Source: Acidimicrobiales bacterium | GTDB taxonomy: Bacteria > Actinomycetota > Acidimicrobiia > Acidimicrobiales > Ilumatobacteraceae | DNA: 32,443 nucleotides | Direction of reading: 5' to 3' | Assembly: GCA_947465505.1 (NCBI GenBank) | Contig: CANIBN010000007.1 | Coordinates: 1 to 32,443, forward strand | Part shown: piece by piece, positions 1 through 13,664 of the stretch | Numbering within the stretch: position 1 is the stretch's first letter | How the letters are laid out: each line of letters starts with the position of its first letter | Made by a program: the position numbers and the translations under genes | Notes under the pieces: generated by a model | Databases searched by the model: none | Told to the model about the DNA's origin: nothing | Seen by the model: the letters and a program-made list of their open reading frames with translations, nothing else

Positions 1-1177
1 CCTCGACGGTGTGCTGGAACGCCGTGACATCGAAATTGCCCTCTTCGTCGAGGTACTTCAGCAGGTTGATCGAAGCAAGGTTGCACGCCGAATTGTCGAG
101 GTGCATGTACTCCGAGCACGGGTTCGAACCATTGATCCGACCGGTGTTGTGTGCGGTGTGCCACTTGTTGATCGTGCTGTCGAACTGCAGACCCGGGTCT
201 GCGCACTCCCAGGATGCCTGTGCAATTTCGCGCCACAGGTCTCGGGCGCGCATGGTTCGCACGATGGATCCGTCGGTGACGGCCCGCAGGTGCCAGTCCG
301 CGTCATCGCGAACAGCCTGCATGAACTCGTCAGTAACACGAACCGAGTTATTGGCGTTCTGGTACTGGATCGAGAACGAGTCGGTGCCGTCAAGGTCCAT
401 GTCGAAGCCGGCATCACGGAGCACGCGAGCCTTGCGCTCTTCTTTGACCTTGCACCAGATGAACTCTTCGACATCGGGGTGATCGACGTTGAGGATGACC
501 ATCTTGGCGGCACGGCGGGTCTTGCCACCGGACTTGATCGTGCCGGCCGAGGCATCGGCGCCACGCATGAAACTCACCGGACCAGAGGCCGTACCACCGC
601 CCTGGAGCAGTTCCTTCGAGGAACGGATGCGGGAGAGGTTGATACCTGCACCGGAGCCACCTTTGAAGATGGTGCCTTCCTCGCGGTACCAGTTCAAGAT
701 GGAGTCCATCGTGTCGTCTACCGACAGGATGAAGCACGCGCTGGCCTGCTGGGGAACGCCCTTCACACCGATGTTGAACCAAACCGGACTGTTGAAGGCC
801 GCGCGCTGGGTAACGAGGATGAACTTCAACTCGTTGCGGAACGACTCCGCCTCGTTGGCATCGACGAAGTAGCCGCCCTCGACACCCCAATTGGTGATGG
901 TGTCGGCGACACGGTCGATGACCTGACGAAGTGACGACTCACGCTCGGGGGTGCCCAGAGTGCCACGGAAGTACTTCTGCGCAACGATGTTCGTTGCGTT
1001 GAGCGACCAGCCGACCGGGAACTCGACGTCGAGCTGCTCAAAGGCAACCGAGCCGTCCTTCCAGTTGCTGATACGCGCATCACGGCGCTCCCACACGACC
1101 TCGTCGTATGGGTGTGTTCCCGGGGAGGTGAAATGCCGCCCAATACCGATCCCGAGCTGCTCCGGCGCGACCGCCAT
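1..1177 (-). CDS. nrdJ: Vitamin B12-dependent (class II) ribonucleotide reductase, N-terminal part; runs off the left edge of the window
   Basis: My minus-strand translation from ATG at 1177: MAVAPEQLGIGIGRHFTSPGTHPYDEVVWERRDARISNWKDGSVAFEQLDVEFPVGWSLNATNIVAQKYFRGTLGTPERES...FNSPVWFNIGV...SACFILSVDDTMDSILNWYREEGTIFKGGSGAGINLS...GRINGSNPCSEYMHLDNSACNLASINL. Typical NrdJ motifs. Frame stays open to base 1, so the stop-requiring ORF track missed it. SD GAAAGGAA upstream. Confidence 0.95.
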   Translation of the reverse strand, partial: MAVAPEQLGIGIGRHFTSPGTHPYDEVVWERRDARISNWKDGSVAFEQLDVEFPVGWSLNATNIVAQKYFRGTLGTPERESSLRQVIDRVADTITNWGVEGGYFVDANEAESFRNELKFILVTQRAAFNSPVWFNIGVKGVPQQASACFILSVDDTMDSILNWYREEGTIFKGGSGAGINLSRIRSSKELLQGGGTASGPVSFMRGADASAGTIKSGGKTRRAAKMVILNVDHPDVEEFIWCKVKEERKARVLRDAGFDMDLDGTDSFSIQYQNANNSVRVTDEFMQAVRDDADWHLRAVTDGSIVRTMRARDLWREIAQASWECADPGLQFDSTINKWHTAHNTGRINGSNPCSEYMHLDNSACNLASINLLKYLDEEGNFDVTAFQHTVE

Positions 1178-1309
1178 GCTGTGATTCCTTTCGTTCCGTT
1201 CCCGCCCACGGACGTTCCGTGGCTCGTGCACCGACCCGCCACTATCTGGGTCGTTATGTGTTTCCAGTGACGGGGACTCCCCCGAAACCACGTCGCTGAG
1301 TGGATTGAG

Positions 1310-1339
1310 ATTACAGCAGTGTAGTTACAGCCGTGTCAA
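1310..1339 (-). promoter_or_regulatory. Candidate nrdJ sigma70-type promoter: -35 TTGACA (1334-1339), 18-bp spacer, -10 TGTAAT (1310-1315)
   Basis: Reverse complement reads TTGACAcggctgtaactacactgcTGTAAT, upstream of nrdJ with a leader of about 130 nt. Confidence 0.45.
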
Positions 1340-1579
1340 CACTTGTTTGCTGCCGCGTGACGGAATCTCGCCCGGCCTCACCCACAGGGCTCTGGCCTGC
1401 CTGAACGTCCACGGCGGGGGCGCAGGTTCAGGACCGAGATCCCACGACGAAGCCTCCCTCAAAACCCGAAGGTGCGGCGCCGCCCCGTCTGCCGCGGCCC
1501 CCGCCGCAAACGTTCTTGCGTGCGTAACCCTAGAGACATTCGCCTGTGGGGAGAAAGAGGGAAAACCCGTGAATTTCCC

Positions 1580-1662
1580 TGTGGATACCCTGTGCCCAAG
1601 CCGCCTGGCCGATCGCCTGCGGGCGCCGTCCACACCCCTATCCACAGCCCCGGGTGTGGATA
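1580..1662. promoter_or_regulatory. Cluster of three DnaA-box-like sites (TATCCACA/TGTGGATA) at 1580-1587, 1639-1646, 1655-1662
   Basis: Exact 8-mers TGTGGATA, TATCCACA, TGTGGATA within 83 bp of the nrdJ/RibD-like intergenic region; each is one mismatch from the 9-mer TTATCCACA. Confidence 0.5.
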
Positions 1663-1688
1663 TTGGGGATAGGTGCTTCAATCGTGGC

Positions 1689-2375
1689 GTGCAGCGCTTG
1701 TTCCCCACGCCTGAGGTTGGCATCGACCCCGCCGACCTGTACGGCGCGTTGGTGCGTCCTCGACCTACCGACCGGCCGTGGGTGGAACTGTGCATGATCA
1801 CGAGCGTGGACGGCACCACAACCGCAGGTGGTACGTCGGGAGCGCTCGGCAGCACCACCGATACGGCGGTCTTGGCCGCCCTGCGGAGGAGCGCTGACGT
1901 GATCATCGTGGGTTCCACCACCGCACATGCCGAGCGGTACCGGGCGCCCAAGAAGTCCGGCCAGCGAGTCGGTGTGGTGACCGCCTCGGGCAACATCGAT
2001 CCCACACTGCCCCTGTTCGACTCTGGAGCGGGCTTTCTCATCACGACGCGAGACGCACCGTCGCACGGGCTTGACGTGATCCGATCGACCACGACAGCAG
2101 TCGACCTTTCCGGAGCGCTCGCACAACTCGACGTCGCAATGGTGCACGCCGAAGGTGGGCCGACGCTCAACGCCGCACTGCTCGCGCTCGACCTCGTGGA
2201 CGAAGTGAACCTCACGATCGCACCGCAATTGGTGGGTGGAGCAGGTCATCGACTCGCCGCGCCGAGCCCTGACGAGCTACCACGGCACCTTGAACTTGCT
2301 CATGTGTGCAACGACGGCAATTACCTGTTTCTGCGTTACGTCCGGGCGATTCAGCGCGGCAGCACAACACGCTGA
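1689..2375 (+). CDS. RibD C-terminal / dihydrofolate-reductase-like domain protein (pyrimidine reductase family)
   Basis: ...VQRLFPTPEVGIDPADLYGALVRPRPTDRPWVELCMITSVDGTTTAGGTSGALGSTTDTAVLAALRRSADVIIVGSTTAHAERY...VHAEGGPTLNAALLALDLVDEVNLTIAPQLVGG: RibD-C motifs. ORF opens at 1305 but homology-like sequence starts near GTG 1689; GTG 1569 (with AGAGGG upstream) is an alternative start. Confidence 0.8.
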   Translation: MQRLFPTPEVGIDPADLYGALVRPRPTDRPWVELCMITSVDGTTTAGGTSGALGSTTDTAVLAALRRSADVIIVGSTTAHAERYRAPKKSGQRVGVVTASGNIDPTLPLFDSGAGFLITTRDAPSHGLDVIRSTTTAVDLSGALAQLDVAMVHAEGGPTLNAALLALDLVDEVNLTIAPQLVGGAGHRLAAPSPDELPRHLELAHVCNDGNYLFLRYVRAIQRGSTTR

Positions 2376-2824
2376 CCGACCTCGAGCGACGGTCCGCCGT
2401 TCAGTCGAACGAGCTTGCGAATGGTCGAGGTGAGGTCACCCGAGGGCTTCAATGCTCGAGCGATGACCCACATGGTGTCCCCACGCTGAGCCACGTACGT
2501 GCCTCCGGGCACGACAACCTGACCGCGCAAGGTTCCGGCAGCGTCGTCTGAAACCGCTGAAGGAATCTTCTGTTCCGACAGCGGAACCGCCGGCAATACA
2601 GCGTCGCTGGTGGCGTTGATCTGACGCACCAGGAACGACCCGGCCGCCAGAACCGCCACCAAGAGCAGCACAGCAGCGAGGCGACGCTTCACGTAGACCG
2701 AACTGCTCAGGCGACGGCTCCCCGAAGCCGCACCGCCCACGATCAACTGCAGACGAACCGGAGGATTGGGGTTCTCCCACGTGCGACGGTACTCGACGGG
2801 TTCGATCCTGAGCGGCAGTGCCAT
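2351..2824 (-). CDS. Membrane-anchored LysM-domain protein divergent from lexA; candidate SOS-induced cell-division/cell-wall protein (ChiZ/YneA-like position)
   Basis: TM segment RLAAVLLLVAVLAAGSFLV and C-terminal LysM TYVAQRGDTMWVIARALKPSGDLTSTIRKLVRLNGGPSLEVGQRVVLPR; SD AGGAAGGA; SOS box 25 bp upstream of the start. Confidence 0.8.
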   Translation of the reverse strand: MALPLRIEPVEYRRTWENPNPPVRLQLIVGGAASGSRRLSSSVYVKRRLAAVLLLVAVLAAGSFLVRQINATSDAVLPAVPLSEQKIPSAVSDDAAGTLRGQVVVPGGTYVAQRGDTMWVIARALKPSGDLTSTIRKLVRLNGGPSLEVGQRVVLPR

Positions 2825-2848: not shown

Positions 2849-2962
2849 GAACGTTCGTTCCCCAAACGACTGTTCGTAGTGTGCCCGAACGACCGTTCGA
2901 CGTCAACCTCGAAGGGGAACAAAAGTTTGTCGAACCTCTGTTTGCTCTGCGAACTACCGTTC
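2849..2962. promoter_or_regulatory. LexA operator (SOS box) array: perfect GAAC-N4-GTTC at 2849-2860, 2887-2898, 2951-2962; one-mismatch sites at 2864-2875, 2917-2928, 2932-2943
   Basis: GAACgttcGTTC, AAACgactGTTC, GAACgaccGTTC, GAACaaaaGTTT, GAACctctGTTT, GAACtaccGTTC read directly between the divergent LysM gene and lexA. Confidence 0.85.
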
Positions 2963-2977
2963 CCCTAGGATGCAGCC

Positions 2978-3613
2978 ATGCGAGCAACCGGCCTCACTCC
3001 CCGCCAGCGCGAGATCCTCGAATACATCGAGTTGAGCATCAGCGAACGCGGGTTTCCCCCGTCCGTGCGAGAAATCGGCGAGGCAGTTGGACTGAACTCT
3101 CCCTCGACCGTGCACAACCACCTCGAGACCCTGAGCCGCCTTGGCTACCTCGTGCGAGATCCAGCCAAACCACGAGCCATGCTCGTCCGCTACGACTCGG
3201 GCTCGGGTGCAGCACTCGAACGTCGCCCGGTTCGTCACGTTCCCCTCGTGGGTTCCGTAGCGGCCGGGGTGAACGTGCTCGCGGAGGAGAACGTCGAAGA
3301 GGTCCTGCCCCTGCCGCTCGACTTCACCGGCGACGGAGAGTTGTTCATGCTGAAAGTACGCGGCGACTCCATGATCGACGCAGGAATCCTCGACGGCGAC
3401 TACGTCGTTGCACGTCAGCAGAGCGAGGCTCGTAACGGCGACACCGTCGTGGTGGGCATCCCTGGCGACGAGGCAACGGTGAAGACGTGGCAGCGAAAGG
3501 GCAACAAGGTGACGCTCATCCCGCACAACAGCCGATTGTCACCGATGACCTTCGATGCCGGCGAGGTGGAGATCTACGGCAAGGTCGTCACCCTCATGCG
3601 CCGTCTCGACTGA
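2978..3613 (+). CDS. lexA: SOS-response transcriptional repressor LexA
   Basis: MRATGLTPRQREILEYIELSISERGFPPSVREIGEAVGLNSPSTVHNHLETL wHTH; Ala-Gly cleavage site region VGSVAAGVNVLAEENV; catalytic KVRGDSMID and ATVKTW. Confidence 0.98.
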   Translation: MRATGLTPRQREILEYIELSISERGFPPSVREIGEAVGLNSPSTVHNHLETLSRLGYLVRDPAKPRAMLVRYDSGSGAALERRPVRHVPLVGSVAAGVNVLAEENVEEVLPLPLDFTGDGELFMLKVRGDSMIDAGILDGDYVVARQQSEARNGDTVVVGIPGDEATVKTWQRKGNKVTLIPHNSRLSPMTFDAGEVEIYGKVVTLMRRLD

Positions 3614-13635: not shown

Positions 13636-13664
13636 AGTGTAACTGCGAACGATTGTTCGTGCAA
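13636..13664 (-). promoter_or_regulatory. recA promoter with LexA operator in the spacer: -35 TTGCAC (13659-13664), -10 TACACT (13636-13641), 17-bp spacer; SOS box GAACGATTGTTC 13647-13658
   Basis: Minus strand TTGCAC-GAACAATCGTTCGCAGT-TACACT; extended palindrome CGAACGATTGTTCG (13646-13659, half-sites CGAAC/GTTCG). Confidence 0.85.

Follow-up and report, generated by a model that had tools for sequence, protein, structure and literature searches.

In Mycobacterium tuberculosis, the gap between lexA and Rv2719c (chiZ) contains four SOS boxes; lexA is under the control of one of them, and the divergent operon under that of the remaining three (PMC8151990). The operon is printed in that source as Rv2019c-Rv2017c, which we take to be Rv2719c-Rv2717c. 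The lexA mRNA of this organism has been found by experiment to be leaderless (PMC2897130). In Bacillus subtilis, lexA adjoins yneA, which encodes an SOS-induced LysM protein with a single transmembrane (TM) helix, and the operator motif is GAACN4GTTC (PMC13396833, PMC6851548); YneA depends on its TM helix to reach the septum, and on the D and T residues of its LysM domain to bind peptidoglycan and to be toxic (PMC13396833). An SOS division inhibitor also lies beside lexA in Corynebacterium glutamicum (lexA-divS) and in Staphylococcus aureus (lexA-sosA) (PMC3989709, PMC6851548).

Literature searches yielded no SOS study on Acidimicrobiales. We analysed a window of 32,443 nucleotides from a member of this order, a freshwater bacterium most likely belonging to Ilumatobacteraceae, in which lexA and a gene encoding a TM-LysM protein are transcribed divergently from a common gap. 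The locus resembles that of M. tuberculosis in the layout of the gene pair, in the several LexA boxes of the gap, and in a lexA gene that is probably leaderless. It also resembles yneA-lexA of B. subtilis, with which it was compared by domain layout only, and the lexA-divS and lexA-sosA pairs, but DivS and SosA, unlike the window protein, have no LysM domain (PMC6851548). As M. tuberculosis already provides a lexA/Rv2719c gap with four boxes, the window presents the same layout with a clarified grammar, and what is added over the known systems is a composite operator-promoter grammar that can be followed across relatives. The SOS layout of lexA beside a putative LysM-type inhibitor is thereby extended to Acidimicrobiales.

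The lexA gene (2978..3613, plus strand) encodes a protein of 211 amino acids with a winged-helix DNA-binding domain (PF01726) and an S24 self-cleavage peptidase domain (PF00717), which scores 223.5 bits against TIGR00498, over the cut-off, and carries the LexA signature motifs AAG at 95, GDSM at 129, and VKTW at 168. The gap upstream of it spans 153 bp (2825-2977) between the lexA ATG at 2978 on the plus strand and the LysM ATG at 2824 on the minus strand. Perfect GAACN4GTTC sites start at 2849, 2887, and 2951 (box 1, GAACGTTCGTTC, 2849..2860; box 3, GAACGACCGTTC, 2887..2898; box 6, GAACTACCGTTC, 2951..2962), and sites with one mismatch at 2864, 2917, and 2932 (box 2, AAACGACTGTTC, 2864..2875; box 4, GAACAAAAGTTT, 2917..2928; box 5, GAACCTCTGTTT, 2932..2943), with start-to-start distances of 15, 23, 30, 15, and 19 bp. 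With one mismatch allowed at most, the window as a whole contains 31 sites; dinucleotide shuffles give 14.5 +/- 3.7, and 31 was not reached in any of 100 trials. For six sites within 114 bp the Poisson probability is about 1e-11 at any one place and about 4e-7 for the whole window. The six sites, their mismatches and spacings, the 153-bp gap, and a TAGGAT -10 element at 2966-2971 had all been described in an earlier reading of the sequence; every coordinate was confirmed, and the array lies far above chance. The identification of the six sites as LexA-type operators adjoining a genuine lexA is supported at the level of sequence.

The conservation of these sites was examined in 55 lexA loci from relatives, including the window's own, by scanning 220 bp upstream of each gene for sites with at most one mismatch. 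These loci contain a mean of 4.2 boxes (n=55), compared with 0.07 in shuffled sequences and 0.10 in lexA coding sequence, and the number per locus ranges from 1 to 7, so that six boxes are no fixed requirement. Positions relative to the lexA ATG fall into classes, which among the 33 same-family loci are occupied as follows: -20..-28 in 29/33, -44..-47 (the class of box 5) in 27/33, -58..-62 (box 4) in 21/33, -84..-92 (box 3) in 16/33, -104..-116 (box 2) in 14/33, and -119..-130 (box 1) in 20/33, against a chance expectation below 0.5% for each class. Adjacent boxes in these 33 loci are most often spaced by 15 bp (36 cases), 24 bp (32), or 29 bp (15), and never by 16-18 bp. The degenerate sites are thus conserved in relatives in a position-specific manner; their absence from relatives would have refuted the earlier reading, which survived this check. 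One of the Acidimicrobiales-type lexA loci (L120) comes from a record titled Bifidobacterium breve, which is probably mislabelled.

The lexA promoter consists of a predicted -35 element TTGCTC (2942..2947, plus strand), which reads TTGAC in most relatives of the family, and the -10 element TAGGAT (2966..2971, plus strand). A TTG...TANNNT promoter was found in 49 relatives, with a spacer of 17 bp in 46 of them and of 18 bp in the window. In the window and in its family relatives the -10 element ends 6-7 nt upstream of the lexA start codon (6 nt in the window), so that transcription probably begins at the start codon itself and the lexA transcript is probably leaderless. Most of the family conforms to the pattern GAACN4GT-TTGAC-N17-TA(C/G)NNT-N6/7-ATG, in which operator and promoter are interleaved. 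Box 5, the most widely kept of the boxes, overlaps the TTG of the -35 element with its 3' end, and box 6 lies in the promoter spacer, about 6 bp farther from the gene than in most relatives.

This overlap bears on how the imperfect boxes are to be read. In all 27 family loci that carry a box at -44..-47, this box has the ending GTTT, its final T being invariant in the family, whereas GTTT occurs in 9/100 boxes at other positions; likewise, GTAC is the ending of the -21/-22 box in 27/27 family loci, compared with 5/98 at other positions. Both counts were made without requiring the promoter pattern TA, and both contrasts give p <1e-19, values that overstate the number of independent events since the loci are related, although the family sample comprises about 27 genera. 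More broadly, ACN4GTTTG is present in 49/55 relatives and in 24/27 other loci of the phylum. Box 5 appears to be held at GTTT because its last two T's begin the lexA -35 element, and the -21/-22 box appears to read GTAC in most relatives because its TAC begins the -10 element. In the window and in its sister genome (G001), the second box is located 6 bp upstream, off the -10 element, and reads GTTC in the former and GTTT in the latter, and a congeneric genome (G002) retains the overlapping GTAC box at -21. Elsewhere in the order, outside this family, the box is found 3' of the -10 element, with GTTC as its ending. These observations indicate, from sequence comparison, that the imperfect boxes are compromises with the promoter sequences beneath them, in the case of box 5 and of the relatives' -21/-22 box. 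The possibility that mismatched boxes are decayed sites was considered and rejected for these same two boxes, as their endings are fixed in 27/27 loci each. The sequence-only reading had taken the one-mismatch sites as weak members of a graded array, an interpretation that does not hold for box 5, whose GTTT is fixed by the overlap with the lexA -35 element. With about 50 natural variants at hand, a mismatch to a repressor consensus can be seen to mark promoter overlap and not a weak or decayed site, a point of consequence for motif scans in which sites are ranked by their consensus score.

Two further groups of lexA loci were compared. The lexA promoters of Lachnospiraceae (L141-L186) are similar in having two to six boxes upstream and ACN4GTTTG in 39/41 loci, but their closest box spacings are mostly 13-14 bp. 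In loci that we call mycobacteria-like, a label read from the LexA score and the sequence, there are usually one or two boxes at the one-mismatch threshold, compared with the mean of 4.2 in the Acidimicrobiales relatives, and the spacer of the lexA promoter carries no box, unlike that of the window. In loci of this kind, L061 for example, the end of the box GAACACATGTTTG runs into TTGATT, and TACATT follows 17 bp on, just before the ATG.

On the other side of the gap, the predicted LysM promoter comprises a -35 element TTGACG (2901..2906, minus strand), which follows the TTGA-plus-box pattern of relatives, and a candidate -10 element CACACT (2878..2883, minus strand) at a spacing of 17 bp; AGGAAGGA lies 5' of the LysM ATG. 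A TTGA with a box a few bases on was found on the LysM side in 45/55 loci, compared with 9/5500 shuffles. The -10 element is CANACT-like in several relatives, but its first base is atypical and the match poor, so that the predicted start near 2871 is less certain. Relative to these elements, box 3 lies in the spacer that separates the -35 and -10 of the LysM promoter, box 2 covers the predicted +1, and box 1 falls in the predicted leader at about +12 to +23; box 4, which is absent from some relatives, lies between the two -35 elements.

Since the boxes flank both promoters, bidirectional SOS control is very likely, as had been proposed before from the LexA-type sites next to a genuine lexA, and with high confidence LexA is predicted to act on operators of both genes. 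A PafBC/RecA-independent promoter motif was searched for, with no match in the gap and two weak matches elsewhere in the window at chance level. Rv2719c of M. tuberculosis is reportedly damage-inducible also without RecA (work attributed to Brooks, 2006), so LexA need not be the sole regulator of such a gene.

The divergent gene (2351..2824, minus strand) encodes a protein of 157 amino acids with a short basic N-terminus containing K-R-R, one TM helix (about 41-74), a linker, and a C-terminal LysM domain (110-156), that is, the single TM helix and C-terminal LysM found in ChiZ and YneA. PF01476 covers residues 110-156 (E=4.4e-5); in an AF2 model residues 41-74 are helical and the LysM region has pLDDT >90; the best Foldseek matches to that region are LysM domains with modest E-values, and a search against NCBIfam returned no family. 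A strong hydrophobic stretch follows basic residues in all 47 aligned family proteins, in which G115 is invariant, D116 nearly so, and the basic columns R46-R48 invariant or nearly so. A profile built from this family picks up the ORF divergent from lexA in four of the mycobacteria-like loci (L061-L064) with E-values from 7e-8 to 4e-10. When whole genomes were searched with it, the lexA-adjacent ORF was the best of the matches listed in G130 and G182, but not in G151, G097, and G198; the LysM profile is not specific, a different LysM protein scoring best in the mycobacteria-like G151, and in two others of these genomes the lexA-adjacent gene was not among the matches listed. Because these best matches are mixed, it is chiefly the position and layout of the gene that speak for orthology to ChiZ. 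The adjoining genes encode a class II (B12-dependent) ribonucleotide reductase (2-1291, minus strand) and a RibD_C reductase (1305-2375, plus strand); the RibD_C and LysM genes are convergent and share 25 bp where their 3' ends meet, an arrangement by which the LysM gene looks monocistronic.

The gene is divergent from lexA in 51/55 relatives, and this linkage, together with the topology, bears out the earlier comparison with ChiZ and YneA. By synteny and topology, we regard the protein with fair confidence as this lineage's ChiZ/YneA-type SOS division inhibitor. It could instead be SOS-induced without inhibiting division, for example as a cell-wall protector or a hydrolase partner in damaged cells; a LysM domain signals peptidoglycan binding only, and ChiZ has also been described as a cell wall hydrolase (PMC3989709), but the protein shares with ChiZ and YneA its position, the combination of a TM helix with a C-terminal LysM, and the linkage to lexA (PMC6851548, PMC13396833), which makes this alternative rather unlikely.

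With regard to the boxes, six sites that bind LexA cooperatively could, as the earlier reading proposed, exert a graded, shared control of both genes, and the recurrence of discrete 15-bp and 24-bp spacings in many genera suggests a geometric constraint between neighbouring dimers. However, the promoter elements that the boxes cover account for most of the fixed positioning, the boxes of M. tuberculosis are divided between lexA (one) and the divergent operon (three) (PMC8151990), and LexA of B. thuringiensis, with a footprint of 18-20 bp on its main box, bound two neighbouring boxes independently and non-cooperatively (PMC4551915), so that we consider cooperative control improbable. A related and speculative picture, to which we give somewhat more credence although we still doubt it, is an ordered multi-dimer complex across both promoters, with LexA dimers packed 15 bp and 24 bp apart; operator and core promoter would have evolved as one composite element, a box losing its consensus base where it lies on the -35 or -10 and recovering it once it has moved off. 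Conversely, only two or three boxes (5, 6, and 3) may matter, the rest being redundant sites that are either retained as a buffer or gained and lost by drift. The variable box number among relatives would fit this, as would the sufficiency of a single lexA box in M. tuberculosis (PMC8151990) and the fact that boxes 1, 2, and 4 have same-position counterparts in only 14-21/33 family loci and the class of box 3 in 16/33; even these less conserved classes, however, stand far above the chance expectation of 0.2-0.4%, and we judge such redundancy possible but on balance unlikely.

The reading that we prefer, and hold to be probable, is that LexA controls a pair of divergent promoters, each gene having boxes of its own, and that the LysM protein would delay septation. 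On intact DNA, LexA dimers on boxes 5 and 6 would block the leaderless lexA promoter at the -35 element and the spacer, and dimers on boxes 3, 2, and 1 would block the LysM promoter at the spacer, the +1, and the leader, with box 4 placed between both -35 elements. Upon DNA damage, RecA would trigger LexA self-cleavage and both promoters would open, until re-synthesis of LexA restored repression. By analogy with ChiZ and YneA, the membrane-anchored LysM protein would be directed to the divisome by its TM helix, bind peptidoglycan, and hold back septation until repair is complete.

The operator motif is also found upstream of other core SOS genes besides lexA. A recA gene (PF00154; 12464-13504, minus strand) has a perfect LexA box at 13647-13658, about 143 bp upstream of its start codon. 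A second gene, named dnaE2-like from its sequence (PHP domain and DnaE2-like start), is preceded by two perfect boxes (C136:5639-5681, L097), the first followed directly by TTGACG and the second containing TATGTT, a possible -10 element, 7 nt before the ATG. The boxes at these two genes indicate that the motif fits the SOS genes of this genome, and the dnaE2-like promoter shares the predicted operator-in-promoter, leaderless design of the relatives' lexA. Across the whole 2.48-Mb genome, which is 81% complete, two GAACN4GTTY boxes within 30 bp occur only in the lexA-LysM gap and in this dnaE2-like promoter.
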